Shown here in pieces: positions 18,154 through 40,487 of a DNA stretch of 58,817 nucleotides (its first letter is position 1; each line of letters begins with the position of its first letter). The position numbers and the translations under genes are program-made. Under the pieces are notes generated by a model. The model searched no databases. It saw only the letters and a program-made list of their open reading frames with translations, and was not told the DNA's origin. Origin of the DNA: Candidatus Taylorbacteria bacterium (lineage in GTDB: Bacteria; Patescibacteriota; Minisyncoccia; Phycocordibacterales; HO2-43-120). Location of the stretch: positions 1 to 58,817 of the forward strand of contig JBDTMN010000007.1 in assembly GCA_039934295.1 (NCBI GenBank), given 5' to 3'.

Positions 18154-18289
18154 TTCCTCATCCACTTCCCCTTTCCAAGGGGAAGTGCCGAGTTTTCGAG
18201 GCGATGGGGTTCACCTTAATCTTTCGCTGAATTTTTTTGAGCACGTACAGGATTCATGATTCATGCTTCATGATTCAAGATTTCGACCC

Positions 18290-19004: not shown

Positions 19005-19378
19005 TAGTTAAATATTACAAGTTTTAACATCTGTAAGGTCCCTCCCTCCGCCTTGGCGGAGGGAGGGATTGGGCCTTATTCTTCCATATTTCATATGGAA
19101 AAGATGGTTTCTGCAAGTCTCTCAAAGATGCGTGGAAATCCGGTTTACCCCGACAGTCTTCTGTCAGGGCTTCCCCCGTAACAGGGATAATTGATGTCGT
19201 TCCTCGCGTAAGCGAGAAAGCCTGAGTCAATGAGTATGATTCTTGAATCTAGAATATAGATTCATGAGTCTATTAATTAAGGTGGTACCACGGCTCGCCC
19301 GAACCTCGCAGGTTCAGGGTAAGAATCCCGTCCTTATTATGCAACTTTGCGTTGTGTAATGAGGACGGGATTTTTTGT
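19005..19378 (+). promoter_or_regulatory. T-box riboswitch controlling trpE-trpG
   Basis: The hallmark AAGGTGGTACCACGG (19279-19293) is close to the T-box consensus AGGGTGGTACCGCG. It is followed by a strong terminator (CCCGTCCT... 19328 with ...GAGGACGGG ending 19370, then a T run), the standard order. Upstream about 270 bases hold several hairpins, including a long GC stem (19037-19073). Candidate Trp specifier TGG triplets occur at 19096 and 19105, but I could not assign the specifier loop. Known: uncharged tRNA(Trp) would stabilise the antiterminator and let transcription reach trpE. The stretch 18943-19439 holds no gene. Confidence 0.85.
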
Positions 19379-19439
19379 TTTCTCTGCCGTTTGGCGGAGC
19401 AAGAAGTCCTTTGGTCAAAAAATTGGTTCTTTGAAAAAT

Positions 19440-20900
19440 ATGAAAACATCACGTAAATTATTCGGGGCTGCTTTCGAGCAATCGAAAACCGAAGGGCGTC
19501 AACTTGTAACGCTCATTCACTCGACTAAGCTGGTTGAACCCTTAGTCGTCTATCGGAAAATCTGCGAGCAGATTAATGAGACGGTCTGTATCATGGAGAG
19601 TGCAACACACACAGGCGAAAAGGGACGTTTCTCTTATGTCTGCGTTAGAGGCAGTGAGCTCCTCAAAATTGAAAAAGAGGAGGATCTAACGGTACTGAAG
19701 AATATGCTTCAGAAGTATTCTCCGCAAGCGCACCCGACACTTCCGTTTATCGGAGGAGCCGTGGGGTACCTCGGGCATGACCTTATCACACTTGTTGAAA
19801 AAACAATTGTGCCTCACGAACACGACCCGTTTCAGCTTCCGCTCGGCGCACAGTATTTCTTCACTGACGTTATTGTTTTTGATCATACTCAGAGGGAAAT
19901 GCACTACGTAGCAAACGTGAGCATATCAGACGGTAAAACCGCTGACGTGGCTTACGAAGACGGGCTCGCCCGAATATCGGAGATGGAACGTTTGGTGGCG
20001 AATGAAGTCATCATGCAAAAAACACCTCCGCATATTGGTCCTATTTCATCAAATGTAAGCCGAGCCGAGTATCATGAAATGGTACTTAAGGCGAAGGAAC
20101 ATATCGTGGCAGGGAATGTGATGCAGGTCGTCCTTTCACAGCGTTTCCAAGCGTCGTACGATTTAGGTCAATCGGAAGGGTGGGGATTACCAATCTATGA
20201 AAAACTTCGCGAGTTGAACCCCTCTCCGTATATGTTCCACATGCGCTTTGGGGCGCAGATGAACCATCTGACGCTTCTCGGTGCTTCACCGGAAATCATG
20301 GTGCATATTGCTCATGAACGGATGCGGATTCGGCCGATTGCCGGGACTCGCAAACGCGGCAAAAATGCCGAAGAAGATAAGCAACTTGCGGAAGAACTGC
20401 TGAATGACCCGAAAGAAATAGCAGAGCACGTAATGCTCCTTGATCTGGCAAGACATGACGTTAGCCGGTTCTGCAAGGATCATTCAGTTCAGATTACATC
20501 GCGAATGAAGGTTGAGTCGTACAGCCATGTGATGCACATCGTCTCGGAAGTTGAGGGGGTGCTTCGCGACAAGGTTCATCCGTTAGATGCTTGCATCGGG
20601 TCGTTACCCGCGGGGACGCTGTCAGGAGCTCCGAAAATACGCGCACTGCGAATTATCGTTGAATTAGAAAAATCAAGACGTGGCCCTTACGGAGGGGCGT
20701 TCGGATGGATGACGAACGTAGCAACTGATACTTGCATATTCATTCGGAGCGCGATGCTCTATAAGGGGGTGATTTACTGGCAGTCAGGTGGCGGTATTGT
20801 AAATGACTCCGAGCCGGAAAGTGAATATCAAGAAACACTGGCAAAAGCCAAACCCATGGAAACAGTACTCGGAAAACTCGGAAAACTCGGAACACATTGA
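19440..20900 (+). CDS. trpE: Anthranilate synthase component I
   Basis: A 486-residue chorismate-using enzyme from the ATG at 19440. The C-terminal catalytic domain is complete: LSQRFQ, SPYMFHMRFG, GASPEIMVHI, RIRPIAGTRKRG, ELLNDPKEIAEHVMLLDLARHDV, SRMKVESYSHVMHIVSEVEG, SLPAGTLSGAPKIRA and GGAFGWM. The N-terminal VCIMESATHTGEKGRFS corresponds to the LLES-type tryptophan feedback site, favouring TrpE over PabB. Role: chorismate to anthranilate with TrpG-supplied ammonia. Preceded by a Trp-type T-box. Visibly different in base use and regulation from the core genes before it, suggesting transfer. Confidence 0.93.
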   Translation: MKTSRKLFGAAFEQSKTEGRQLVTLIHSTKLVEPLVVYRKICEQINETVCIMESATHTGEKGRFSYVCVRGSELLKIEKEEDLTVLKNMLQKYSPQAHPTLPFIGGAVGYLGHDLITLVEKTIVPHEHDPFQLPLGAQYFFTDVIVFDHTQREMHYVANVSISDGKTADVAYEDGLARISEMERLVANEVIMQKTPPHIGPISSNVSRAEYHEMVLKAKEHIVAGNVMQVVLSQRFQASYDLGQSEGWGLPIYEKLRELNPSPYMFHMRFGAQMNHLTLLGASPEIMVHIAHERMRIRPIAGTRKRGKNAEEDKQLAEELLNDPKEIAEHVMLLDLARHDVSRFCKDHSVQITSRMKVESYSHVMHIVSEVEGVLRDKVHPLDACIGSLPAGTLSGAPKIRALRIIVELEKSRRGPYGGAFGWMTNVATDTCIFIRSAMLYKGVIYWQSGGGIVNDSEPESEYQETLAKAKPMETVLGKLGKLGTH

Positions 20901-20908
20901 ACAAAATT

Positions 20909-21541
20909 ATGAAGAAATTCATCAAACCACAGGTGGTCATCCTTGACCACGAAGATTCATTCACCTATAACCTTGTCGCGGCGCTCGGCATACTCGGTGC
21001 CTCGGTTACTGTTTTTAGGACGACCGTTGATATCGAGGAGATCAAAAAGTTATCTCCAACTCACATCGTGTTTTCACCAGGGCCAGGGCATCCAAATGAA
21101 GTCCCGCTCTTTCAAAAAGTGCTCGATGAATATAAATACACCCCAATTTTGGGTGTGTGCCTCGGACATCAAGCGATTGCAGTGCATTTTGGAGCAGAGG
21201 TTGTTTGTGCCTCGATGATTATGCACGGAAAGACATCGGAGATTGAGCATGAGGGTGGCAGTATCCTTCAGGGCTTGCCTAATCGGTTTATTGCCTGCAG
21301 GTATCATTCGCTGATTGTCCGCAGAGTGACCATAAACCCAAGACTACTGGAAGTCACCTCCGTCGCTACGAATGATGGAGCGGTCATGGGTTTACAAAGC
21401 ATTGACTACCCTCATATCGTTGGCGTGCAGTTTCATCCGGAAGCATTCCTCACTGAACACGGACCAGCCTTGCTCGGTAACTTCCTGAATCTTGAAGTCA
21501 AGGGGAAATCCGAAAGTAGCACTCGGGGAAAGTCCTTGTGA
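20909..21541 (+). CDS. trpG: Anthranilate synthase component II (glutamine amidotransferase)
   Basis: About 210 residues from the ATG at 20909 (a TTG at 20897 overlapping trpE is an alternative). Class I glutamine amidotransferase: ILDHEDSFTYNLV at the start, FSPGPGHP oxyanion strand, nucleophile in ILGVCLGHQAIA (Cys near residue 80), and VGVQFHPEAFLTEHG with the catalytic His-Glu. Role: releases ammonia from glutamine for TrpE. Only eight bases separate it from trpE, so the pair is one operon. A perfect terminator follows at 21589. Confidence 0.93.
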   Translation: MKKFIKPQVVILDHEDSFTYNLVAALGILGASVTVFRTTVDIEEIKKLSPTHIVFSPGPGHPNEVPLFQKVLDEYKYTPILGVCLGHQAIAVHFGAEVVCASMIMHGKTSEIEHEGGSILQGLPNRFIACRYHSLIVRRVTINPRLLEVTSVATNDGAVMGLQSIDYPHIVGVQFHPEAFLTEHGPALLGNFLNLEVKGKSESSTRGKSL

Positions 21542-21935: not shown

Positions 21936-22973
21936 TCATGACTGATTCTCTCGGTCCAGTTCAATAAGATGCTCAACTTTATCATCTTCAAGAGGGAAAC
22001 CGAAGTACCCTCCGTGGCTAACTGGGATGTAGGTGGCCGGATTTGATCCGATGATATCGCCGACGTGGATCGCCTCTCCTCGCAGGTCTTTCATTCTGCG
22101 AAAAATATCTTCAGCAGAATGGAGACAAATGTAGCTGAAGGCATTGAGTGCGTGGTGATCGCAGGGCAAGCTTGCCCACTCCGGTTTTCCGTATGGCTTC
22201 ACATACGGCATGGCGATAGATGCGCTGGCGAAATTGAGATAGACGGGCATGATGATTTTTCCAAGCTGGTATCCCACCACCCTCCCAGCATTTGGAATAA
22301 ATGGAAAGAAATCATGCGACGGCATCCAATCGAGAGGATTAGCTGGTTTGAGGCAGTAATGGATCTCGCCCTGGTACACTTGTCTGATCGATTTTTCCGC
22401 CTCGGGAAACATGATTCCAAGCACGATTGCCTGCACTCGAGCCCGTTTTTCCAACAGTAACCGGAGGGAATAGAGAAGTGTACTTCCGGTGAAAGCGCCA
22501 TCCTCAACCAGAATCACGTCGCGGTCAGCAATTTCAGGGTTAAGGTCTGCAATTTGCTGAGACGGAAGTTTATGGCGCGGTCTCGGTCCAATACCGATGA
22601 TGTTGCCATCGATGTCAACAATCCTACTCAAATGAATTGAGCGACCATCGGCGCCGAATGAGAGCAGGGGACAGGTACTCAGGACGAGTGGTTGATGAAA
22701 CTTCTTTCTAACTCGGTTCACTGTCGTGGTGATCTCGCGACTCTGCTCGCGGGCAGGAATTACGATAATCTCCACGTCATCATTCCTGCTGAAGATTTCC
22801 TTCAGCGCTGAGACGAGCCGATTCTCAATATTCTGAATGAAGTCGGGCTCGGGAATCTTAAGCCCGATATTTGCAAATGCATCAATCTGCTCTGCAAGGG
22901 TCTGCGTGACAATGTACTGTCGGGGGGCACAATGGTGCCCATCGGCCTTTTCTGGAACTTCAGTTTTTTTCAT
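21936..22973 (-). CDS. Phosphoribosyltransferase-like protein, family A
   Basis: A 345-residue protein from the ATG at 22973 (a TTG at 23009 is open but less likely). The type I PRTase PRPP loop is visible as DRDVILVEDGAFTGSTLLYSL (residues about 176-196, read in part), after a beta-rich first half. The C-terminal third has the unusual segment KPYGKPEWASLPCDHHALNAFSYICLHSAEDIF. The same plan (PxGxPxxWAS(L/I)P, then a Phe-Ser-x-(I/F)-Cys helix) ends the protein at 27586-28518, so the two are distant paralogues. The substrate is unknown. It has its own promoter (TTGACA 23075-23070, TAGCAT 23053-23048) and terminator. Confidence 0.65.
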   Translation of the reverse strand: MKKTEVPEKADGHHCAPRQYIVTQTLAEQIDAFANIGLKIPEPDFIQNIENRLVSALKEIFSRNDDVEIIVIPAREQSREITTTVNRVRKKFHQPLVLSTCPLLSFGADGRSIHLSRIVDIDGNIIGIGPRPRHKLPSQQIADLNPEIADRDVILVEDGAFTGSTLLYSLRLLLEKRARVQAIVLGIMFPEAEKSIRQVYQGEIHYCLKPANPLDWMPSHDFFPFIPNAGRVVGYQLGKIIMPVYLNFASASIAMPYVKPYGKPEWASLPCDHHALNAFSYICLHSAEDIFRRMKDLRGEAIHVGDIIGSNPATYIPVSHGGYFGFPLEDDKVEHLIELDRENQS

Positions 22974-23047
22974 ACGATTAGGTCTTCGCGGTTTTTCGGT
23001 TGTGGTCAAACATAGCTCACAGAGATATGAGCCAGTTACTAAGACTT

Positions 23048-23144: not shown

Positions 23145-23831
23145 TTATAGGGTTAATGATTCGAGAGCGATTTCAAGATGTATGATATTTTTTAAGCGAA
23201 AATCGGCAGATGAAAGAATCTCTTTCTTGCTTACAAGAATTGTTTTCATGCCAGCATTCTTTGCGGGAATAATATCAGTATTTTCTTGGTCTCCGACGAC
23301 TATGCATTGTTGAGGTTTTATGTTTAATGATTTTACTAGAGATTCAAACGCATTGCCGTTACCTTTGCGCGTGTTTCCTTCTCCAGAAATAATATGACCA
23401 CTGAATAGGTCATCTATTTGAAGTTCTCTCAACACATTATCAATCCAGATTTTTGGCGCGTCACTCAAAATAAAGATGTCATATTTTTTGCAGATGCGAA
23501 TCAGCATCGGCCTCAATTCTTTTGAATGCGAAACAAATTGGCGTGCTGGGATATTCCAAACGGTATTAAAGTAATCATAACGATTCAAACCGTATTCTTT
23601 TTCAAGAGCGATGCTGATGTCTTCTCCATACTTTTTGAAAATCCGAGACAGAATTTTTCCCGCCTCATCACCGGTGACCTGAAGCTGGGCAGAAATAAAT
23701 TCCCGTGCATTTGAAAGTATTTTCGCCTGAAGTTTCGAATCTCGAAATTTGCCTCCTTTGAATGAATAGAGGGTGCCGTCCAGGTCGAAAATGATAGTAT
23801 CGTCTTTTTTTTTTAATTTTCTTGTTCCCAT
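23145..23831 (-). CDS. HAD-superfamily hydrolase (pyrimidine 5'-nucleotidase-like)
   Basis: A 228-residue HAD phosphatase. Motif I is IIFDLDGTLYSF (residues about 13-24), motif II is FILSDAPKIWIDNVL (about 120), motif III Lys lies in the ISGEGNTRKGNGNAFE region, and motif IV is CIVVGDQENTDIIPAKNAGM. The cap is inserted between motifs I and II, as in the SDT1/YjjG-type nucleotidases (the DLDGTLY form). Role: probably dephosphorylates a nucleotide or sugar phosphate. It lies on the same strand as the PRTase-like gene and the second HAD gene. Confidence 0.82.
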   Translation of the reverse strand: MGTRKLKKKDDTIIFDLDGTLYSFKGGKFRDSKLQAKILSNAREFISAQLQVTGDEAGKILSRIFKKYGEDISIALEKEYGLNRYDYFNTVWNIPARQFVSHSKELRPMLIRICKKYDIFILSDAPKIWIDNVLRELQIDDLFSGHIISGEGNTRKGNGNAFESLVKSLNIKPQQCIVVGDQENTDIIPAKNAGMKTILVSKKEILSSADFRLKNIIHLEIALESLTL

Positions 23832-24930: not shown

Positions 24931-25791
24931 ATGAATGTTCATGAACAAGTTGAAATTGTACTTGACGCCCGTTACGTTAACGACATGTCCCCAGGCCATA
25001 TGGGTTCCCGGATTATGCGTTTTATACGTCAAAGCGATCAAGCTTCGTTGGTTGTAAAATACGCTCACCCGAAAAATAGGCTCGCTTCAAATGACCTTGC
25101 TGAAAATGTCTTTGCTTACTCCGGACTAAAGAAAATCGGTGCGTCGATCATGTTGCCGAAGGATATTCAGGTCATCTCAATCTGGGGTGAAAAAGTCCTT
25201 GTAATGAGTGATATCGGGCAGACGATGGCGCAAAGAAATGGTGGTGTTAAGGAATTCAATTTTCTCGCTAAGCATTTGCTTAACGTATTGGAGAAAACGA
25301 GATGCACAACCTCTGAAGATATTGCAGATATCGGGGAGAGAGAAACCCTTCGAAACATCAAACGATTTTTGCCAAAGGGAAGCAATATTTGTCTCAGCAT
25401 TGCTCAGAGCGGCGAAAATAAGCTAAAAAAATTAGCTGTCATGGTGTTGGATTTTACTCCGGACAATGTCTCCGTGAATGAAAATGGTTTGTCATTTATT
25501 GACCCGTGGCGCCAAAGGTCATATTTGGGCAATCCAGCGATAAGTATCGGGCAGTTTGTGACACTGGCTCGTTTATACAAAATGCGAGATGCGAAGGCGG
25601 GGGGAGAAGTTCTGGAAGGAATGGCGAAGGTAAAATTGCCAAAGCTTCTCGGAACTAAATCTTCAGTAATCGAAAGAGGATTGAAACTTGGGGCAACTCT
25701 GCAATATGTTCTTTCCGCTTATGTACGGAGGAATTCTGAGCCGGAGCAATCAAGGGATTTTTTGAACAGAGCTCGAGATATGTGGATTTAG
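24931..25791 (+). CDS. Protein-kinase-fold-like protein (possible small-molecule kinase)
   Basis: A 286-residue protein not assignable to a named family. One segment resembles the catalytic core of APH/choline-kinase-like enzymes: VMVLDFTPDNVSVNENGLSF then IDPWRQRSYLGNPAISIGQ (residues about 170-208). That would place a catalytic Asp in LDFTPDN and a metal-binding Asp in FIDPW. An upstream LVVKYAHPKNR may be the ATP-binding lysine strand. The catalytic loop lacks the usual His. A Shine-Dalgarno-like AAAGGA lies 11 bases before the ATG, TTGACA-17-TAAATT lies upstream, and a perfect terminator follows at 25813. Function unknown. Confidence 0.5.
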   Translation: MNVHEQVEIVLDARYVNDMSPGHMGSRIMRFIRQSDQASLVVKYAHPKNRLASNDLAENVFAYSGLKKIGASIMLPKDIQVISIWGEKVLVMSDIGQTMAQRNGGVKEFNFLAKHLLNVLEKTRCTTSEDIADIGERETLRNIKRFLPKGSNICLSIAQSGENKLKKLAVMVLDFTPDNVSVNENGLSFIDPWRQRSYLGNPAISIGQFVTLARLYKMRDAKAGGEVLEGMAKVKLPKLLGTKSSVIERGLKLGATLQYVLSAYVRRNSEPEQSRDFLNRARDMWI

Positions 25792-25837: not shown

Positions 25838-25844
25838 GTAATAA

Positions 25845-25879
25845 AAAACCGACTACATCATTTGTGACGAGCCGGTTGA
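25845..25879 (-). terminator. Intrinsic terminator of the hisS-tRNA-His transcript
   Basis: Minus strand: AACCGGCT pairs with AGTCGGTT (one wobble), followed by TTTTTT. It lies about 45 bases beyond the 3' end of tRNA-His. Confidence 0.8.
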
Positions 25880-25923
25880 TATGAACTAAACTTTTGAAAG
25901 AATGACCAAATCCTAAATCGGAA

Positions 25924-26000
25924 TGGTGGGTATGACGGGACTCGAACCCGTAACATCTGGTTCCACAGACCAGTGCTCTAGCCGGTTGAGCTACACACCC
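25924..26000 (-). tRNA. tRNA-His (anticodon GTG), A73 and no G-1
   Basis: A complete cloverleaf on the minus strand: acceptor GGGTGTG/CATACCC, D arm GCTC...GAGC, anticodon stem CTGGT/ACCAG with loop CTGTGGA (anticodon GTG), T arm ACGGG-TTCGAGT-CCCGT, then A73 and an encoded CCA (25926-25924). Odd: normal bacterial tRNA-His has an extra G at -1 facing C73. Here position -1 is encoded as T and 73 is A, as in the alphaproteobacterial type. The gene starts 11 bases after the hisS stop and shares its terminator, so hisS and its own tRNA are one transcript. Confidence 0.92.
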
Positions 26001-26011
26001 ACCCAGTTACC

Positions 26012-27406
26012 CTACTTTTGTAGTGCAAGCGTAATCATATCACTCGCTTCCTTTTCTGTCAACAGTTCTTGTTTTTTGGCGTCAAGATCGCGAAGGGCAA
26101 CCTTTCCCGACTTGATTTCATCGGGTCCGAGAATGATGACAAACCTGATTCCTTGTTTCAGGGCGTATCCCAATTGTGCCTTGATTGTTCGCTCATTTCC
26201 CAGATATATTTCTGTTGGCACCCCTCCTCTGCGAATCCTGCTAGCACAAGCAAGTGAAGCTTCGGCCAACGATTGGTCGAAGATGGTGACGAGGACTTTT
26301 GAAACGCTTGTTTCCTCTTTCACCCTACCGAGACGAGTGAGGGCGGTGAATAGGCGGTCGACCCCCACAGAAGCTCCCACGCCAGGCATGTTAATGTCGG
26401 CATCGAAGCGATTTACCAGACCATCAAACCGCCCGCCCGAGAAAATACTACCGATGTCGGGCATGTCTTCGATGACCGTCTCGAAAACAGGTCCGGAGTA
26501 GTAATCCAGTCCTCGTGCTACTGCGAGGTCTATTTTCCAAAACTCCTCTGGGATACCAATCAAAAGGAGATTCTTCGTGAGAGCCTTCAGGGCATCGATG
26601 CCTTTACTCGCGTCCTCTGATTTTGCTTCGAAGAATTTCTCGACCAGATTCAACAGTTCAGAGGAAGTTTCCGACTTTAAGGCGAGGAAACCCTTCAGAA
26701 TTTGAATTTGCTCTGGGTTGAGGAGTAGTGGGTTAGTGAGCGCAGTATCAGATTCCTTCGTGAGTTCGGCGATGACCCCGTCGACTCCAAGGGAATCGAT
26801 TTTGTCGATTGCTCGGTCCAGCTCTTTGCACTTGTCCGAACAGTTTAGAATTTCGGCCAAACCGTTCAAAATTCGACGGTCATTAATGCGTATCGAAAAC
26901 TTTGGGAGTTCAAGATTACTCAGCGTTGCATAAATAACCTGCACGATTTCGGTGTCGGCAAGGATCGAATTAGACCCGACGATGTCGGCGTCGAACTGGA
27001 AAAACTCCCTGTAGCGGTTGTTTTGCGGCTTTTCGCCCCGCCAGACTTTGCCAATTTGATACCGCTTGAAAGGCCGAGGAATTTCCTGGTAGGATGCCAC
27101 TACGCGAGCGAGGGGCACAGTAAGGTCGAATCTTAAGGCAGAGTCCTCGTCGCCGAGGTCTTTGCCCCGATCTTCTGCACCTCTCACTACCCGCGTTCGG
27201 AATATGCTTTTGTTGAAGTCTTCCGAACCGCCGGTAAGCACCTCCAGACGCTCCATTCCCGGCGTCTCCAGTGGCACGAATCCAAACGATTCAAAGATGA
27301 TCTTTATTCGAGCAATGAGCTTCTGGAACGGGATCATTCTAGCCGGCAGAATGTCCTGAAAGCCAGAAAGAAGGGACGGTCGGACTGTTTTTTGTTCTGT
27401 TTTCAT
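26012..27406 (-). CDS. hisS: Histidyl-tRNA synthetase
   Basis: A 464-residue class II synthetase from the ATG at 27406. Motif 2 is KRYQIGKVWRGEKPQNNRYREF followed by FQFDADIVGS; the His-specific segment LDYYSGPVFET, then GGRFDGLVNRF and motif 3 GVGASVGVDRLFTAL are intact. The C-terminal anticodon-binding domain ends at ASDMITLALQK. The WRxEKPxxxRxR(E/Q)F-FQFDAD form of the motif 2 region resembles, from memory, the HisRS of lineages whose tRNA-His lacks G-1, which matches the tRNA encoded immediately downstream. An upstream extension to 27472 is open but contains promoter-like sequence (TATACT near 27450). Confidence 0.93.
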   Translation of the reverse strand: MKTEQKTVRPSLLSGFQDILPARMIPFQKLIARIKIIFESFGFVPLETPGMERLEVLTGGSEDFNKSIFRTRVVRGAEDRGKDLGDEDSALRFDLTVPLARVVASYQEIPRPFKRYQIGKVWRGEKPQNNRYREFFQFDADIVGSNSILADTEIVQVIYATLSNLELPKFSIRINDRRILNGLAEILNCSDKCKELDRAIDKIDSLGVDGVIAELTKESDTALTNPLLLNPEQIQILKGFLALKSETSSELLNLVEKFFEAKSEDASKGIDALKALTKNLLLIGIPEEFWKIDLAVARGLDYYSGPVFETVIEDMPDIGSIFSGGRFDGLVNRFDADINMPGVGASVGVDRLFTALTRLGRVKEETSVSKVLVTIFDQSLAEASLACASRIRRGGVPTEIYLGNERTIKAQLGYALKQGIRFVIILGPDEIKSGKVALRDLDAKKQELLTEKEASDMITLALQK

Positions 27407-27585: not shown

Positions 27586-28518
27586 TCAATGAATCTCACT
27601 CTCCGCGACTTCCAGGTAATCAACGAATCTAGTTCCATTATCGGGCCAGTTCGTCAATTTCCTGTCTATGTCGGAACAAAGAACAAGTTTGCACGTTTGC
27701 CTTTCAATTTCTTGAAAAAGATGGATTGATTGTCCTATGCAAAACCGCGAGAAGTTCGTCGCCTGTTCACGGGGTATGCTCGCCCATGAACACGGGTTAC
27801 CGAAGGGTAGCAAATACGGCAGGCCCACAGCATGATCAGTGTGAAGCGTTCTTCCCGAGTAATCGATGCCAGGATAGAAGTCGCGTTCACAAACTTGGTC
27901 GACTACTTCGTCATATGCTTTGCTAGACGCCACCGTAAGTCCTCGGCGATTGATTCGGTCAATACCGCTTTGAATTCCAACTCCACACATTACCGTAGCG
28001 ATTTTGAAACCAGCGGACTCGAGTTCTGCGCAAACTGACTCCAATAGGTGTCCGGTAAAGATGACATCGTCATAAACGACAATAGTATTCGCTCGTCGCA
28101 ATCGTTTGCGAAGCATCTTGATTTGGGTAGCCAAGTCTGGGTGGTTTTGCCGGGGACTAAGGGGCCCGTCGGTCAAATCTGGAAGTGCTGTTCTTGTGAG
28201 TTCAATGTTGAACTTGGAATTGACGTACGTCTTATCCAACGTCACCAAAGTTGCTTTTTCGCCAGAAGCACTGATTAGTTTTGGATTTTGAAGCGCACAC
28301 GATGGTATGAATTCCACATTACCAAATATTGAACGTAACTTCTCTACAAATACTGACCTTACTGTGCGGAAGAATTTTTTTGATGGGAGACGAAATCTAT
28401 GATTTGTCGCCCACTGCGCAAGGAGAATATCAATGTCTCCGGAAACTACATACGGTTTGTTAGTCATAAGTTCAATCCTCTTTTTGAAATTTTCAAAGGT
28501 CGTCCTTTCTGAAGTCAT
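27586..28518 (-). CDS. Phosphoribosyltransferase-like protein, family B
   Basis: A 310-residue protein. The PRPP-loop-like segment is RANTIVVYDDVIFTGHLLESV (residues about 145-165), with the two acidic residues and TG of type I PRTases. The first 130 residues are a separate region (SKKFFRTVRSVFVEKL). The end has LPFGNPCSWASIP and RFCIGQSIHLFQEIE, the same layout as the 345-residue protein at 21936-22973. Preceded by a candidate attenuator (28565-28735) and followed by its own terminator. Substrate unknown; the lack of an extended PRTase hood makes a salvage role only a guess. Confidence 0.6.
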   Translation of the reverse strand: MTSERTTFENFKKRIELMTNKPYVVSGDIDILLAQWATNHRFRLPSKKFFRTVRSVFVEKLRSIFGNVEFIPSCALQNPKLISASGEKATLVTLDKTYVNSKFNIELTRTALPDLTDGPLSPRQNHPDLATQIKMLRKRLRRANTIVVYDDVIFTGHLLESVCAELESAGFKIATVMCGVGIQSGIDRINRRGLTVASSKAYDEVVDQVCERDFYPGIDYSGRTLHTDHAVGLPYLLPFGNPCSWASIPREQATNFSRFCIGQSIHLFQEIERQTCKLVLCSDIDRKLTNWPDNGTRFVDYLEVAESEIH

Positions 28519-28770: not shown

Positions 28771-29322
28771 ATGAAGTCAAAAAAGAGAAAATTTCAAATT
28801 GGGGTTATGGGCTCTGCAGCGGATTTGAAGTACACAAAGGAGATTGAGAAACTTGCTTTTGAAGTAGGGAAACGTATTGCCGAATCGGGTAACATCACAG
28901 TTTACGGAGCAGAGAAGGATTATGACTCACTTTCTACAGCGGCATCACGCGGGGCAAAAAGCCTTGGCGGACTAACTGTAGGTGTTACCTATGGAAAAGG
29001 AAAAGACATTTGGGACAAGGAGGGGATGACCGACGTGACTATAGTGACAGGAATGGAAAGGGGAGGCGGACGCGAGTTTGTTCTCGTAAATTCTTGCGAT
29101 GTTTTAATCATTATCTCGGGTGGTTCAGGCACGCTTACCGAAACTGCGATTGCGTATCAAATGAATATTCCGGTGATTGCAATAACAGGAACGGGCGGAT
29201 GGGCAGATAAACTTGCCGGACAATATATTGATGCTCGAGAAAGAATCAAAATAATTGCGGTTGAAAATCCAAAGGAAGCAGTGCGTGTTGCAATAGATGA
29301 AGTTAGGAAGATGACAAGCTAG
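28771..29322 (+). CDS. LOG / TIGR00725 family Rossmann-fold protein
   Basis: A 183-residue protein. N-terminal QIGVMGSAADLKYTKEIE, central ERGGGREFVLVNSCDVLIIISGGSGTLTE (residues about 95-125) with the PGGxGTxxE motif in the form SGGSGTLTE. Related proteins cleave cytokinin ribotides (LOG) or bind nucleotides in DprA-like folds; the TIGR00725 branch has no assigned role. An extended -10 (TGCTATCAT) precedes the ATG by seven bases, so the mRNA is probably leaderless. Followed after 13 bases by the Nudix gene, so probably one operon. Confidence 0.8.
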   Translation: MKSKKRKFQIGVMGSAADLKYTKEIEKLAFEVGKRIAESGNITVYGAEKDYDSLSTAASRGAKSLGGLTVGVTYGKGKDIWDKEGMTDVTIVTGMERGGGREFVLVNSCDVLIIISGGSGTLTETAIAYQMNIPVIAITGTGGWADKLAGQYIDARERIKIIAVENPKEAVRVAIDEVRKMTS

Positions 29323-31230: not shown

Positions 31231-31926
31231 TCAGACCCCGGGAGATAAAATAAGTGCTTTTGTAATGCGTGGTACTTCTTTTTCAAAAAAATTCTTGACC
31301 ATTTTCCAATCTGCTTTGAAATTGGTGACAGGATCTGGATCATTTTCCGCGTCCTCAAAATACACAAGGCTCTTGAGAATGTGGACGGGATTCTGCTTCA
31401 CGGTATACTGATTTTGGGCAGACTCGATACTTTTCATAAGTGTCTGAATATGCGCGGAGAGCCAATATAAGTCGAAGAAGTCTCGTTTTTTTCCACGTTG
31501 GCATATTGCAATAATTTTCATCGCGGCAATATCCTCCGGTTTAACGAGAGATATGCTTCCAAGCTCTAAAAAAGGCTGGGAAAATTTTATAAAAGGATAT
31601 GCAATCAAGCTCACTTTAGCCCCATTGAGCTCTCCGTATACGGTAGCGCGATCAAGGGAAGATGTTTTCCATTTCCCGACTGTGCTTAATGTCTCTTCTA
31701 TTTTTTTTTCATCGAACGATTTTTCTGGAGTAAAAAAATCAAGGTCAACAGACGAACGATGTCCGACTTGAAGTGCAAGCGCCGTTCCGCCTGCCAGATA
31801 CCATCCCCCGCTCGAAAAAAAAGCATTTGATATGCACAGTAAAAAAGCTTCCTTCGTAGCTTGAGGAAGGACATCAAGATGCAATGACTTCAAAACCGCC
31901 ATGTCTATGTTAGGAGTAGAGACCAT
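31231..31926 (-). CDS. AbiEii-like nucleotidyltransferase (toxin-type)
   Basis: A 231-residue protein with the AbiEii/MNT-type core WYLAGGTALALQVGHRSSVDLDFF (residues about 41-64, read in part): GG(T/S) then DxDFF. SISLVKPEDIAAMKIIAI and KKRDFFDLYWL follow, as in the AbiEii family. Known: AbiEii enzymes add nucleotides to tRNA acceptor ends and act as toxins. It overlaps the 3' end of the 74-residue gene upstream by 22 bases, a toxin-antitoxin-like arrangement. Confidence 0.82.
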   Translation of the reverse strand: MVSTPNIDMAVLKSLHLDVLPQATKEAFLLCISNAFFSSGGWYLAGGTALALQVGHRSSVDLDFFTPEKSFDEKKIEETLSTVGKWKTSSLDRATVYGELNGAKVSLIAYPFIKFSQPFLELGSISLVKPEDIAAMKIIAICQRGKKRDFFDLYWLSAHIQTLMKSIESAQNQYTVKQNPVHILKSLVYFEDAENDPDPVTNFKADWKMVKNFFEKEVPRITKALILSPGV

Positions 31927-35421: not shown

Positions 35422-36531
35422 ATGGAAAATACAGAACAAAATGGCATGCCTATGGGCATGCGTAAGGCTCGTTCAATGGCAGTTGAATTTGTCACGAACG
35501 GCCATCCCGACAAGGTTTGCGACCAGATGGCGGATTCCATCCTGGATGCCGCGATCTCTCAAGATCCGCTCTCGCGAGTGGCGATGGAGGTCACTGGCGG
35601 ACATGGTATAGTTTTCGTCACGGGAGAGATGACAACGAAAGCCGATTTTGACATCGGAAAAGTTGTCCGAGATGCTTACCTCAAGATTGGTCATGACCAC
35701 TCCATCGGTGTGATAACGAACGTCGTGAAGCAGTCTCCTCACATATCACAAGGTGTCGACACTGGTGGTGCCGGGGATCAGGGCATCATGGTCGGTTATG
35801 CAGTTAAAGGTGAATTGGATTTCATGCCGAAACCATGGGGTCTTGCTCGCAAGCTTACCCGACGACTCCGGGAAGTTAGAGTGAAGGGAATTTTACCCTA
35901 CCTTCGTCCAGACGGAAAAAGTCAGGTCACTATGACTGGTGATCGTGTCACTCATGTTACCATTGCAGCTCATCACAGCGAATCGGTATCACTCGAGCAA
36001 GTACGACACGACATTATCAGTCAAGTTGTGCAACAAATCATACCCCAGATCGACGCTGTCGTTGTGGTCGTGAATGGCACAGGAATATTTGCTCAGGGCG
36101 GGTTCGAAGCTGATGCTGGCACAACGGGCAGAAAGCTTATTGTGGACAACTACGGTCCTGTGGTCGAGATTGGTGGGGGTGCATACTCTGGGAAAGATCC
36201 TTCGAAAGTTGACAGAAGTGCCGCCTACTTCTGCAGGATGGTCGCAAAATCCATAGTGGCTGGAGGGCATGCGGATGAAGCGATTGTGAAAGTTGGCTAT
36301 GCCATCGGCGTTGCTAAACCTACGTTCTTTTCGGTGGAAACATCTCTCCCTGAAAAGGAGGCTCTTGCCCTTGAGGAACGGGTTCGGTCTCAGTTTTGTT
36401 TCGAGCCAAGAGCAATCATCGATCAACTCGGCCTCCTTAAGCCGAAGGGATGGTGCTACTGTGATACTGCCGAGGCGGGTCATTATGGTGATGACCGATT
36501 TCCTTGGGAACAGGTCTCTCAAATCGTATAG
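35422..36531 (+). CDS. metK: S-adenosylmethionine synthetase
   Basis: A 369-residue MetK. Visible motifs: FVTNGHPDKVCDQMADSILDA (ATP/methionine site, normally SEGHPDK), VDTGGAGDQGIMVGYA (the GAGDQG loop), IVDNYGPVVEIGGGAYSGKDPSKVD with the P-loop GGGAFSGKD form, and SVET near the end. Role: Met + ATP to SAM. The N-terminus is unusually Met-rich (five Met in the first 19 residues). It is the only plus-strand gene of the island, convergent with the homocysteine methyltransferase, and has its own promoter and terminator. Base use is visibly more GC-rich than in the genes after 41.8 kb. Confidence 0.95.
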   Translation: MENTEQNGMPMGMRKARSMAVEFVTNGHPDKVCDQMADSILDAAISQDPLSRVAMEVTGGHGIVFVTGEMTTKADFDIGKVVRDAYLKIGHDHSIGVITNVVKQSPHISQGVDTGGAGDQGIMVGYAVKGELDFMPKPWGLARKLTRRLREVRVKGILPYLRPDGKSQVTMTGDRVTHVTIAAHHSESVSLEQVRHDIISQVVQQIIPQIDAVVVVVNGTGIFAQGGFEADAGTTGRKLIVDNYGPVVEIGGGAYSGKDPSKVDRSAAYFCRMVAKSIVAGGHADEAIVKVGYAIGVAKPTFFSVETSLPEKEALALEERVRSQFCFEPRAIIDQLGLLKPKGWCYCDTAEAGHYGDDRFPWEQVSQIV

Positions 36532-36716: not shown

Positions 36717-37592
36717 CTAACGACGTTTTAGCTGGCTATAAGCGCGAGTGTAATCGGGATTAGTACCGCAACACCCACCAATAATCGTGGCACCTAAATC
36801 GACCCAATTTGAACAGTGGTGAAGATAATTTTCTATCTGATCCGCAGTGGTAAATTTCCAACCCTCTTTATTGTCAGCTTCGCCTGCACCGTTACCATAA
36901 GCGCCAAAGGGCAGAGACGTGACTTTTTTGATTTTGTTCAGAGCTTTAGAGGCGACTCCTCCTTGCACGCAATTTACCAAAATTGCGATAGGATGAAATT
37001 TGCTCAATTGATCGATAGCTTCTTTCCAGCGGTCGCCGTTCAGAATGTCACCCGCCTCGTTGGTAGTGAAACTGACAGCAAATGATTTTCCAGTAGAATA
37101 GACTTCTTCTGCGACAATAATTGCCTCCCTAAAGCTATTGAATGTTTCCAAAAGAAAAAAATCAATTGGCGTATCGGCTAAAAGTTGTACTTGCTCTCTA
37201 TGTTCAGTTTTCATTTCACGTTCTGTAGGTAATAAATCCGGCCGATAACAATCTTCCAAAGTAGTGACGCATCCAGCTATATATACCGGTCGCTTAGCCT
37301 TGGCTTCATTGCGCGCTTCCACTGCAATATTTACCGCTAGACGGTTAATCCGTTCCGTCTCTCTTGATAATCCCACTTTCGCCAAAGTCCGACGTTGCGT
37401 ACGGAAAGTGTTAGTGGTAATGATATCAGCTCCCGCTTCAATATAGTCAATGTAAATCTGTTTTAATAATTCCGGATTATCGAATAAGACTTGGGCTGAC
37501 CACAATGGCAGTTTCGTTGGAAATCCTCTGCGCAAAATTTCTGTACCTGTGCCACCAGCTAAGTAATATATTTTTTCTTTTTCAATTTTCAT
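36717..37592 (-). CDS. mmuM: Homocysteine S-methyltransferase
   Basis: A 291-residue zinc-dependent methyltransferase of the HMT/MmuM (Pfam S-methyl_trans) family. N-terminal LAGGTGTEILRRGF, then ADIITTNTFRTQRR, FFLLETFNSFREA, ILVNCVQGGVAS (first Cys ligand) and IIGGCCGTNPDYTRA (the GGCCGT Cys pair that binds zinc). Length matches MmuM, not the cobalamin MetH. Role: moves a methyl group from S-methylmethionine (or SAM) to homocysteine, giving methionine. It is downstream of the methionine S-methyltransferase on the same strand, with a hairpin between them, and the two together would form a cycle. Confidence 0.88.
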   Translation of the reverse strand: MKIEKEKIYYLAGGTGTEILRRGFPTKLPLWSAQVLFDNPELLKQIYIDYIEAGADIITTNTFRTQRRTLAKVGLSRETERINRLAVNIAVEARNEAKAKRPVYIAGCVTTLEDCYRPDLLPTEREMKTEHREQVQLLADTPIDFFLLETFNSFREAIIVAEEVYSTGKSFAVSFTTNEAGDILNGDRWKEAIDQLSKFHPIAILVNCVQGGVASKALNKIKKVTSLPFGAYGNGAGEADNKEGWKFTTADQIENYLHHCSNWVDLGATIIGGCCGTNPDYTRAYSQLKRR

Positions 37593-37674: not shown

Positions 37675-38523
37675 TCATGCCAAAGTTCCCGCCATGACAT
37701 AAATGTTATGATAGACCGTCGCTCGCTCAACTCGAAGCTTTTCGGCTTTACGAGCGTTAATCAACTTGCTACCTTTGCAATCAGAGAAAAACTCAAAGTC
37801 ACAATGACCGTTTCCTTCAAGCGCGACAAGCGATGCTAGCGAAGTACCCGAATGTTGAGGGATTGTTTCTTTGTGCACCAATGTGGGTTTGTAACCTAAA
37901 CCACTAAAGAGGGAGCGCAGAGATTTTAGCCCGGGTCGCCCGCCCAGATTTAGCACGACTTTCCCTCCCGGTGCGAGAACATCGCGTGCTTTGATCAGAA
38001 GCGTTTCCACCAGACCAAGTCCGAGAGCATTTAGATGTGCACTAGGATAGTGGGCCGGGTCATAGTAATGAGCAAGCCTGTCACCAATCGAGAGGTCAAT
38101 TTCTGATGGTACTTGCGGGAGACATCCGAAAATAATGTCAACTCTCGGAGGCTTGAGACCACCTCTGGATGGGGGTGTTACCAAGTCCCACGATCCATAG
38201 AGTGGGTGTAACCCATCGCGCTTTCCGTTTGAGGACAGCAGATTTCTCATCGCAAGTGGCACAAATCGGGCGTCATAGTCCGAGAAATACCAATTCGAGC
38301 TCAATGCTTGGTTTCGAAGCACAACAAGATTGATGCCGGTGCCCACTCCAACTTCCCACACACATTTGTTTTTCCACGAATATGTGAGCTTTGAAAGTCC
38401 ACGCAAGAAAGCCACACTCCAGTGGTCTGGTTTGAAAGCCCATTCTGGCACACGGATAGTGACATTCGTATCGAGGTTACCAATTGAATCATTCAGAATC
38501 TTCGAAATTAAAAAGTCTGGCAT
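37675..38523 (-). CDS. mmtN: Methionine S-methyltransferase-like protein (MmtN / plant MMT N-domain type)
   Basis: A 282-residue class I methyltransferase. SAM motif I is CVWEVGVGTGINLVVL. Segments match, as I recall it, the N-terminal domain of plant methionine S-methyltransferase: VPEWAFKPDHWSVAFLRGL (plant VPEDWSFTFYEGL), DIIFGCLPQ (VGCIPQ), ALGLGLVETLL (FGLGLIARAV), PGGKVVLNLGGRPG (AGIMIFNMGGRPG), LASLVALE (ISALVEIE) and DFEFFSD (RFEFF). The NxPPY motif of PrmC-like enzymes is absent. Free-standing bacterial MmtN has this length. Role: Met + SAM to S-methylmethionine. Next to homocysteine methyltransferase and metK, and behind a Met-rich attenuator-like leader. Activity is inferred. Confidence 0.75.
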   Translation of the reverse strand: MPDFLISKILNDSIGNLDTNVTIRVPEWAFKPDHWSVAFLRGLSKLTYSWKNKCVWEVGVGTGINLVVLRNQALSSNWYFSDYDARFVPLAMRNLLSSNGKRDGLHPLYGSWDLVTPPSRGGLKPPRVDIIFGCLPQVPSEIDLSIGDRLAHYYDPAHYPSAHLNALGLGLVETLLIKARDVLAPGGKVVLNLGGRPGLKSLRSLFSGLGYKPTLVHKETIPQHSGTSLASLVALEGNGHCDFEFFSDCKGSKLINARKAEKLRVERATVYHNIYVMAGTLA

Positions 38524-38855: not shown

Positions 38856-40487
38856 CTATTTCGTTCCATTAGTAATTGCATCAAGATCAACCTTTTGCAC
38901 CAAAGGACTTGGTTCGCCAATTGTGTGACCTGCAGGAAGTGGCGAATACGACCAAACGACATCCGTGACTCCGAGGAACCGGTTCAATCGTTCTGTCGTG
39001 TTTGGAATAAAAGGCTGTGAGATCCGACGGAGTGTATCTGAAACAATGCAACATACGGCGAGGGTCTCTGCAACATGCACTCGATCGGTACCAAACTGCT
39101 CCCATGGTTTTCGATGTTCAAGATAGACATTTGCATGTCGCGCTAGATTCAGAAGTCCATTTAGTGCAAGACGTAGTTCTGCGTCTTGGATATGCTGGCC
39201 AACAGCTCTGAATATGGCTTCGCACTCTCGCATTAATTCCAGACTTTCTTGACTGACTACCTCAACATCTGGAACAGATCCAAAATAGCGATGGGTCATT
39301 GAAAATGTCCGATTCCAGAAATTGGCAAGGACACCGATCAACTCAGCGTTCACTCTTTGCTGAAAATCCTGCCATTGGAAGTTAGTGTCATTCGTCTCCG
39401 GGCCACTCGCTACGAGATAAAAGCGGATAGCATCAGGCTCGAACTTCTCCAAAACCTGTGGGAGCCAAACTCCAATTCCTTGACTTTTCGAAAACTTGAC
39501 GCCTTCGAAGTTGAGGAACTCACTCGAGATAATCCGATCTGGCAGGTGAAGTCCAAGTCCCATGAGTATTGCCGGCCAAATAATCGTGTGGAACGGAATG
39601 TTGTCCTTGCCGTGCACATAATAGTGGAGAGAATCAGGATTTTCCCACCATTCACGCCACGCCTCGGGACTCCCATGAAGTGTGGCCCACTCCTTAGAAC
39701 AGGAGAGATACCCACAAACCGCCTCAAACCAAACATAGATACACTTCTCCTCGAAACCGATGACAGGTACAGGGATACCCCATGAAAGATCACGAGTTAC
39801 GGGCCTCTCCTTGAGACCCTGTTTGAGCCAACTTTTAGTGGTGGTTACCGCATTCTCACGCCATCCCCTTTGTGCAACCGACCATTCTTCGAGGCGGTTC
39901 TGAAACTTGGGCAAACATAAGTAAAGATGAGTGGAAGGACGCCATGAAGGTGTCGCTCCGCACGTCTTGCATCGAGGATTCTCTAGCTCCTTAGGTGTAT
40001 ATGGTTTACCACAAGAATCACATTGGTCTCCCCGAGCCGAAGCTGAAGCGCACCGTGGACAAGTTCCTTCGATGAATCGATCAGGGAGAAAACGTTGGCA
40101 CGTGTTGCAATAGGCTTGCTCCTCCTCATGGGACACCATGTGTCCCTCGGAATGGAGGGTCGCGAATACATTTTGAGCGACTCCTTTGTGGAAATCTCCC
40201 ATCGTCTTTGAATAGAGCGAGTAACTGAACTTGAGCTTCCCGACGAGCGTGTCCACAAACTCATTGTGATATCGTGTAGCAACCTCACCTGGTGAAAGTC
40301 CCTCTCGATCAGCAGTCACGAGAATTGGAGTTCCATGACAATCGCTCCCCGAAACAAACAACACGTCATCACCACGTGCACGGTGATAGCGAGCAATAAC
40401 ATCTGCTGGTAAGAGTGCCGCTACATGGCCAAGATGTAGTGAACCATTGACATACGGCCATGCTGCCGCAATAAGTACTTTTTTCAT
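38856..40487 (-). CDS. metG: Methionyl-tRNA synthetase
   Basis: A 543-residue class I synthetase. HIGH motif AAWPYVNGSLHLGHVAALLPADV (residues about 8-30 in part), KMSKS form KFSKSQG (about 334). A zinc knob has two Cys pairs (YCNTCQRFLPD, GTCPRCAS, DQCDSCG, PRCKTCG), the duplicated four-Cys knuckle of the MetG1 type. It ends after the anticodon-binding helices without a C-terminal dimer domain. It has TTGACA-17-TAGTTT (40619-40591), a leader of about 100 bases and a real Shine-Dalgarno (AGAAGGA), which most core genes here lack. Its presence in a methionine island is functionally consistent; it may be a second or replacement copy. Confidence 0.94.
   Translation of the reverse strand: MKKVLIAAAWPYVNGSLHLGHVAALLPADVIARYHRARGDDVLFVSGSDCHGTPILVTADREGLSPGEVATRYHNEFVDTLVGKLKFSYSLYSKTMGDFHKGVAQNVFATLHSEGHMVSHEEEQAYCNTCQRFLPDRFIEGTCPRCASASARGDQCDSCGKPYTPKELENPRCKTCGATPSWRPSTHLYLCLPKFQNRLEEWSVAQRGWRENAVTTTKSWLKQGLKERPVTRDLSWGIPVPVIGFEEKCIYVWFEAVCGYLSCSKEWATLHGSPEAWREWWENPDSLHYYVHGKDNIPFHTIIWPAILMGLGLHLPDRIISSEFLNFEGVKFSKSQGIGVWLPQVLEKFEPDAIRFYLVASGPETNDTNFQWQDFQQRVNAELIGVLANFWNRTFSMTHRYFGSVPDVEVVSQESLELMRECEAIFRAVGQHIQDAELRLALNGLLNLARHANVYLEHRKPWEQFGTDRVHVAETLAVCCIVSDTLRRISQPFIPNTTERLNRFLGVTDVVWSYSPLPAGHTIGEPSPLVQKVDLDAITNGTK

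Follow-up and report, generated by a model that had tools for sequence, protein, structure and literature searches.

The genome behind the window, a 58,817-nucleotide stretch of Candidatus Taylorbacteria DNA, encodes two histidine systems. A canonical histidyl-tRNA synthetase (HisRS) and a canonical G-1:C73 tRNA-His lie on other contigs, and the window carries a divergent second HisRS (HisRS2) linked to a tRNA-His gene without G-1. The same linkage recurs in four relatives. One cell probably holds two separate histidine-charging systems, and we consider it likely that the second pair is a laterally spread cassette, orthogonal to the canonical pair in at least one direction, which would supply His-tRNA under certain conditions or in spite of an inhibitor. 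The genome measures 1.05 Mb in 25 contigs, is 99% complete and has 38 tRNA genes above the cut-off.

G-1 is regarded as a near-universal mark of tRNA-His. The cassette tRNA-His(GTG) gene (25924..26000, minus strand) was called by ARAGORN and by Rfam RF00005 at 70.8 bits, among the top scores of the genome's 38 tRNAs. It folds into a clean cloverleaf with acceptor pairs G1:C72, G2:C71 and G3:C70, and CCA is encoded. Reading of the bases places T (U in the RNA) at position -1 and A at position 73 in place of the encoded G-1:C73 of canonical bacterial tRNA-His; the first-pass annotation had noticed these two bases, and the tRNA calls agree with them. The mature tRNA would lack G-1. Upstream, across a gap of 11 bases (26001-26011) and on the same strand, lies hisS2 (26012..27406, minus), at the distance described earlier. 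It has an ATG start and encodes an accessory HisRS of 464 aa, assigned by TIGR00442 (345.3 bits; cut-off 286.75), PDB relatives and alignments. Its motif 2 reads WRGEKPQNNRYREF (WRGE...); with the HisA motif RGLDYY, SGGRFDGL and the motif 3 stretch GVGASVGVDRL, the class II and HisA/HisB catalytic motifs are intact in alignments.

Downstream of the tRNA, near 25843..25877 (minus), is an intrinsic terminator, AACCGGCTCGTCACAAATGATGTAGTCGGTTTTTT, with a predicted hairpin and T run; none was found between hisS2 and tRNA-His. Similar terminators stand directly 3' of the cassette tRNA in G385 and G217, two of the relatives described below. A search with Rfam found no T-box or other known regulatory RNA at the locus. 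Transcription of hisS2 and the tRNA as one unit, as previously proposed, is likely but stays putative, because a promoter-like TTGACA-17-TATGAT site with 11 of 12 matches (26034..26062, minus) lies inside the 3' end of hisS2, where it could drive tRNA-His on its own. In such a scan, 1.7 sites with at least 9 of 12 matches are expected by chance per 2 kb.

The first-pass annotation had read the locus as an altered histidine identity, a reading at odds with a second, normal tRNA-His elsewhere in the genome. Our whole-genome tRNA survey finds one on contig C10 (4734-4808), a tRNA-His(GTG) with encoded G-1, C73 and CCA, which a search for the canonical pattern also recovers. A second HisRS of 435 aa, with motif 2 FRYEKPQRGRLREHWQ, is encoded on contig C15; it groups with the HisRS of a same-genus genome (G001) and is 26% identical to HisRS2. 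As canonical tRNA-His and canonical HisRS are both present, the cassette is an extra pair and not a replaced identity. The C10 tRNA (L025 1500-1574) scores 59 bits versus 71 for the cassette tRNA and has a C27.U43 mismatch that is absent from its counterpart in G001, perhaps through relaxed selection.

Among 60 genomes, mostly of the same order, only three have a HisRS near 38% identity to HisRS2. Across 380 genomes of the phylum, the four closest enzymes are those of G385 (53%), G217 (52%), G147 and G203 (43% each), and all four genes adjoin a co-directional tRNA-His without G-1, located downstream of hisS in G385 and G217 and upstream in G147 and G203. Together with the window, these loci form a group of five hisS2-tRNA-His cassettes, defined by adjacency, shared direction and absence of G-1; a HisRS of this close group is missing from 375 of the 380 genomes sampled. 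By contrast, no tRNA-His lies near any of 105 other hisS loci: the 25 from the phylum that rank next by similarity (1.5 kb flanks) and 80 named ones (flanks up to 6 kb; best HisRS identity 42%). The difference in adjacency, 4/4 against 0/105, gives a Fisher P of 8e-9, with the groups set by similarity rank after a first look. Because four independent relatives repeat the same layout, the arrangement is not due to chance.

The bases at -1 and 73 vary between cassettes: T/A in the window, C/C in G385, T/C in G217, T/A in G147 and C/A in G203, giving C73 in two of the tRNAs. We rejected a conserved U-1:A73 pair as a substitute for G-1:C73, as it occurs in the window and G147 and in none of the other three. 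Canonical G-1:C73 tRNA-His is also present in G385, G217 and G203, and was not found in G147, whose genome is 89% complete. The tRNA-His genes read in other genomes, including G001, G005, G059 and G434, have G-1:C73. An A73-CCA pattern scan of the 380 genomes, which misses cassettes without encoded CCA and hence is no census, returned the window gene as the only true tRNA-His among the matches examined; the others were a tmRNA, a tRNA-Val and some tRNAs with a variable arm, these last judged by eye.

Across families, the cassette tRNAs are 68-82% identical to one another, compared with 54, 49, 63 and 69% to the canonical tRNA-His of the genome in which each resides. All five begin with GGG and have CCC at 70-72. 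Their greater likeness to each other than to the resident tRNA-His indicates that enzyme and tRNA travel together; joint movement had been suggested from the window alone, and the recurrence of the cassette supports it as well. In an IQ-TREE phylogeny of 70 HisRS sequences, the order's housekeeping enzymes cluster with the E. coli type, and the window enzyme falls in a 16-sequence clade (support 100/98) made of two halves. One half contains the five cassette enzymes, that of G059 and one from Desulfobacterales (96/82); the other contains alphaproteobacteria, Phycisphaerae, Planctomycetota, Zixibacteria and Hydrogenedentota (100/98). For the five cassette enzymes as a sole clade, the AU test gives P = 0.46, with the G059 and Desulfobacterales enzymes nearby. 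The earlier assignment of HisRS2 to the alphaproteobacterial, G-1-less kind is thus right as to a sister relationship (100/98), but the enzyme does not lie inside that clade.

In E. coli HisRS, Q118 reads C73 and R123 reads G-1, and the enzyme loses about 250-fold without G-1 (PMC10100707). The Gln118 equivalent is kept in all five aligned cassette enzymes, and the R123 equivalent is Arg in the window, G385 and G217 and Asn in G147 and G203. Since the window enzyme retains both residues, mutual orthogonality is not implied, and HisRS2 may charge canonical tRNA-His too.

Extra HisRS genes recur in the phylum. Three lie within 13 kb in G350 (C11:73090-86096; L289, L290), and two in G334 (C3:176951-193125; L286, L287), one of them with R123 changed to Asn. 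G005 (C2; L071) has two that differ in type and are separated by 10 kb. A long-type HisRS occurs on Clostridia plasmids (L285, Paraclostridium bifermentans pHD0315_2-1), indicating that second HisRS genes move on mobile DNA.

The window matches G001 on both sides of the cassette, at 9.0-18.2 kb (contigs C17 and C32) and at 44.6-45.3 and 56.4-57.2 kb (contig C2); the cassette itself sits in an accessory region of its genome (18300..42000). In the parts of this region that were searched, 18.3-28.9 kb and 38.9-42 kb, no G001 DNA match was found beyond a short repeat. An intergenic repeat of ~55 bases lies at 18157-18211, and about 25 similar copies are scattered in G001. Contamination or a misbinned contig is unlikely, as the flanks match a genome of the same genus and the tetranucleotide correlations of three window parts with C10 and C15 are 0.90-0.96; the cassette region may be a chimeric assembly. 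We also rejected a phage or plasmid origin: the nearest homologues from phages, plasmids and IMG/VR reach at most about 40% identity, and in the five viral loci read hisS had no tRNA-His nearby.

Several neighbours recur with the cassette. A SLOG cluster-4 (LOG/TIGR00725-like) protein (28771..29322, plus; Pfam PF18306) recurs, at 62-77% identity, as a neighbour of four of the five cassettes. A phosphoribosyltransferase-like protein (21936..23009, minus; PF00156 at 25.9 bits, just below the 26.3 cut-off) has homologues beside the cassettes of G385, G217 and G147, and a paralogue in the window (27586..28518, minus) with a weak OPRT/APRT fold match. These two kinds of gene accompany four of the five cassettes and none of the other hisS loci examined; G203 lacks both. 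A HAD phosphatase resembling pyrimidine 5'-nucleotidases (23145..23831, minus) and an unannotated, possibly kinase/APH-like protein assigned from a motif only (24931..25791, plus; poor AF2 model, pLDDT 46) have homologues by the G147 cassette, 49% and 39% identical, respectively. Histidine ammonia-lyase adjoins the cassette in G147 and G203.

The accessory region of this 1 Mb genome also holds a trpE/trpG anthranilate synthase pair (19347-21541) with no G001 DNA match, as well as metK (35422-36531) and a homocysteine S-methyltransferase gene (36717-37592) by a MetRS gene (38856-40487; 506 bits). The latter is one of two in the genome, the other being at C13:14534-15919 (382 bits). An AbiEii-like nucleotidyltransferase toxin gene (31231-31926; Pfam 78.6 bits) lies 4 kb from the cassette; it and a weak mads_2 match (37675-38523) are all that PADLOC reports, and we discarded the idea of a defence system.

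From these features we infer how the pair would work. HisRS2 would charge the G-1-less tRNA-His, reading its GUG anticodon and probably its GGG:CCC acceptor end, while the housekeeping HisRS, from a family that needs G-1:C73, should charge the cassette tRNA poorly. Two histidine-charging pairs would then coexist in a cell, orthogonal in one direction or more. The tRNA would have to travel with HisRS2 because the housekeeping enzyme would serve a G-1-less tRNA poorly, and since HisRS2 and the unusual tRNA function as a pair, the cassette would move laterally as a unit, in four of five cases with the SLOG cluster-4 and phosphoribosyltransferase-like genes. Its most likely use would be to supply His-tRNA for translation, either conditionally or in an inhibitor-insensitive manner.

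A rival reading, to which we give only a modest chance, is self-resistance, whereby HisRS2 would withstand an inhibitor that acts on the housekeeping HisRS and the tRNA would come along as HisRS2 needs it. Antibiotic producers that carry a second SerRS, IleRS or TrpRS offer a precedent (PMC9437257). The wide gap between the two HisRS (26% identity) and the accessory region with nucleotide-metabolism genes are consistent with this, but no pathway known to yield a HisRS inhibitor is encoded, and a resistant enzyme by itself is usually enough. We know of no resistance-synthetase family that carries its own tRNA.

Ordinary redundancy is unlikely. It would make the cassette a laterally gained second pair, neutrally kept or lost, or now displacing the canonical one; the mismatch and lower score of the C10 tRNA and the absence of the close HisRS group from nearly all sampled genomes would fit this reading. 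Against it, the phylum is poor in genes, yet both pairs recur in several of its families with intact motifs.

We find it equally doubtful that the cassette is a dedicated, non-translational source of His-tRNA for the surrounding pathway, set apart from the ribosomal tRNA-His pool. The company of SLOG4 and phosphoribosyltransferase-like genes points that way, as do the adjoining histidine ammonia-lyase and the TrpE/TrpG, MetK, homocysteine methyltransferase and second MetRS genes of the region. However, the cloverleaf and anticodon of the tRNA are normal, nothing in it would keep it off EF-Tu or the ribosome, and no enzyme known to use His-tRNA was recognised among the neighbours. Moreover, hutH is also close to many ordinary hisS genes, and the G203 cassette does without the SLOG4 and phosphoribosyltransferase-like pair. 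In its fuller form, in which an orthogonal pair would reserve its own pool of aminoacyl-tRNA for secondary metabolism or signalling, in a nucleotide-linked pathway away from the ribosome (SLOG4, phosphoribosyltransferases, HAD, kinase), we think the proposal slightly less likely still.

A tRNA-His without G-1 is familiar from alphaproteobacteria, reportedly through the work of Ardell and Andersson in 2006, Wang in 2007 and Yuan in 2011. Rhodobacteraceae, Rhizobiales, Caulobacterales and Hyphomonadaceae combine it with a divergent HisRS, as relayed in PMC3937112 and PMC9976931; PMC3937112 presents this identity as confined to a single alphaproteobacterial clade, and in Caulobacter it requires U72 (PMC9976931). 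The window tRNA likewise lacks G-1 and has A73, and its HisRS comes from the neighbouring clade, yet plain acquisition of the alphaproteobacterial identity in place of the lineage's own is very improbable, given the persisting canonical pair, Gln instead of Gly in motif 2, C72 instead of U72 and the two C73 cassettes. The alphaproteobacterial system is the cell's sole histidine system, whereas the window pair is additional. Gly replaces Gln118 in the alphaproteobacterial enzymes (4/4 aligned), and the earlier impression that motif 2 of HisRS2 is of their type is not borne out. Their tRNA uses U72, whereas the cassette tRNAs have C72 in 5/5, within GGG:CCC, and either A or C as base 73. The cassette hisS is linked to tRNA-His, unlike the hisS of the alphaproteobacterial clade in the flanks read (up to 6 kb for L086, L097, L128, L133 and L154), which contain none. 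The cassettes thus appear, from sequence comparison, to use a different G-1-less identity.

The alphaproteobacterial type itself extends beyond alphaproteobacteria. Position 118 is Gly in alphaproteobacteria, Zixibacteria and Phycisphaerae and Ala in Hydrogenedentota, and the tRNA-His of Zixibacteria and Hydrogenedentota has A73, no G-1 and G1.U72, as in the Caulobacter rules (HisRS with motif 2 GPG or APG in L086, Zixibacteriota, and L133, Hydrogenedentota; tRNAs at L201 1502-1578 and L196 1501-1577, minus). GPG-motif HisRS also occurs in Phycisphaerae and Planctomycetota (HisRS only: L097, L128, L154). Loss of G-1 in bacteria has been seen as one event within alphaproteobacteria; the cassettes would add a different G-1-less identity that is mobile and sits beside the normal one. 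They open to direct test how one cell tolerates two identities for a single amino acid, and whether a tRNA and its synthetase can cross identity barriers only by moving together.

Duplicated aminoacyl-tRNA synthetases serve stress or antibiotic resistance, according to the part of the review consulted (PMC9437257), which lists HisZ and no second charging HisRS; we found no second charging HisRS/tRNA-His pair in the literature searched. HisRS2 shares with them a second, deeply divergent synthetase gene, but the cognate tRNA usually stays behind, save for PylRS2 and TrpRS-A. The TrpRS-A/tRNA-Trp(A73) operons of candidate phyla radiation bacteria (PMC5370408) resemble the cassette in the small genome, the single operon for an odd tRNA and its synthetase, and the coexisting canonical pair; they differ in amino acid, in the class I enzyme and in an unrelated accompanying ORF1. 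One archaeon has two mutually orthogonal PylRS/tRNAPyl pairs (PMC9071458), which serve a non-canonical amino acid and stop codon decoding, and whose orthogonality has been tested where that of HisRS2 is predicted. The likeness lies in two pairs per amino acid, A73 on the second tRNA and a recognition difference in the motif 2 loop, and the cassettes may give genetic code engineering a natural source of HisRS/tRNA-His pairs that are possibly orthogonal.
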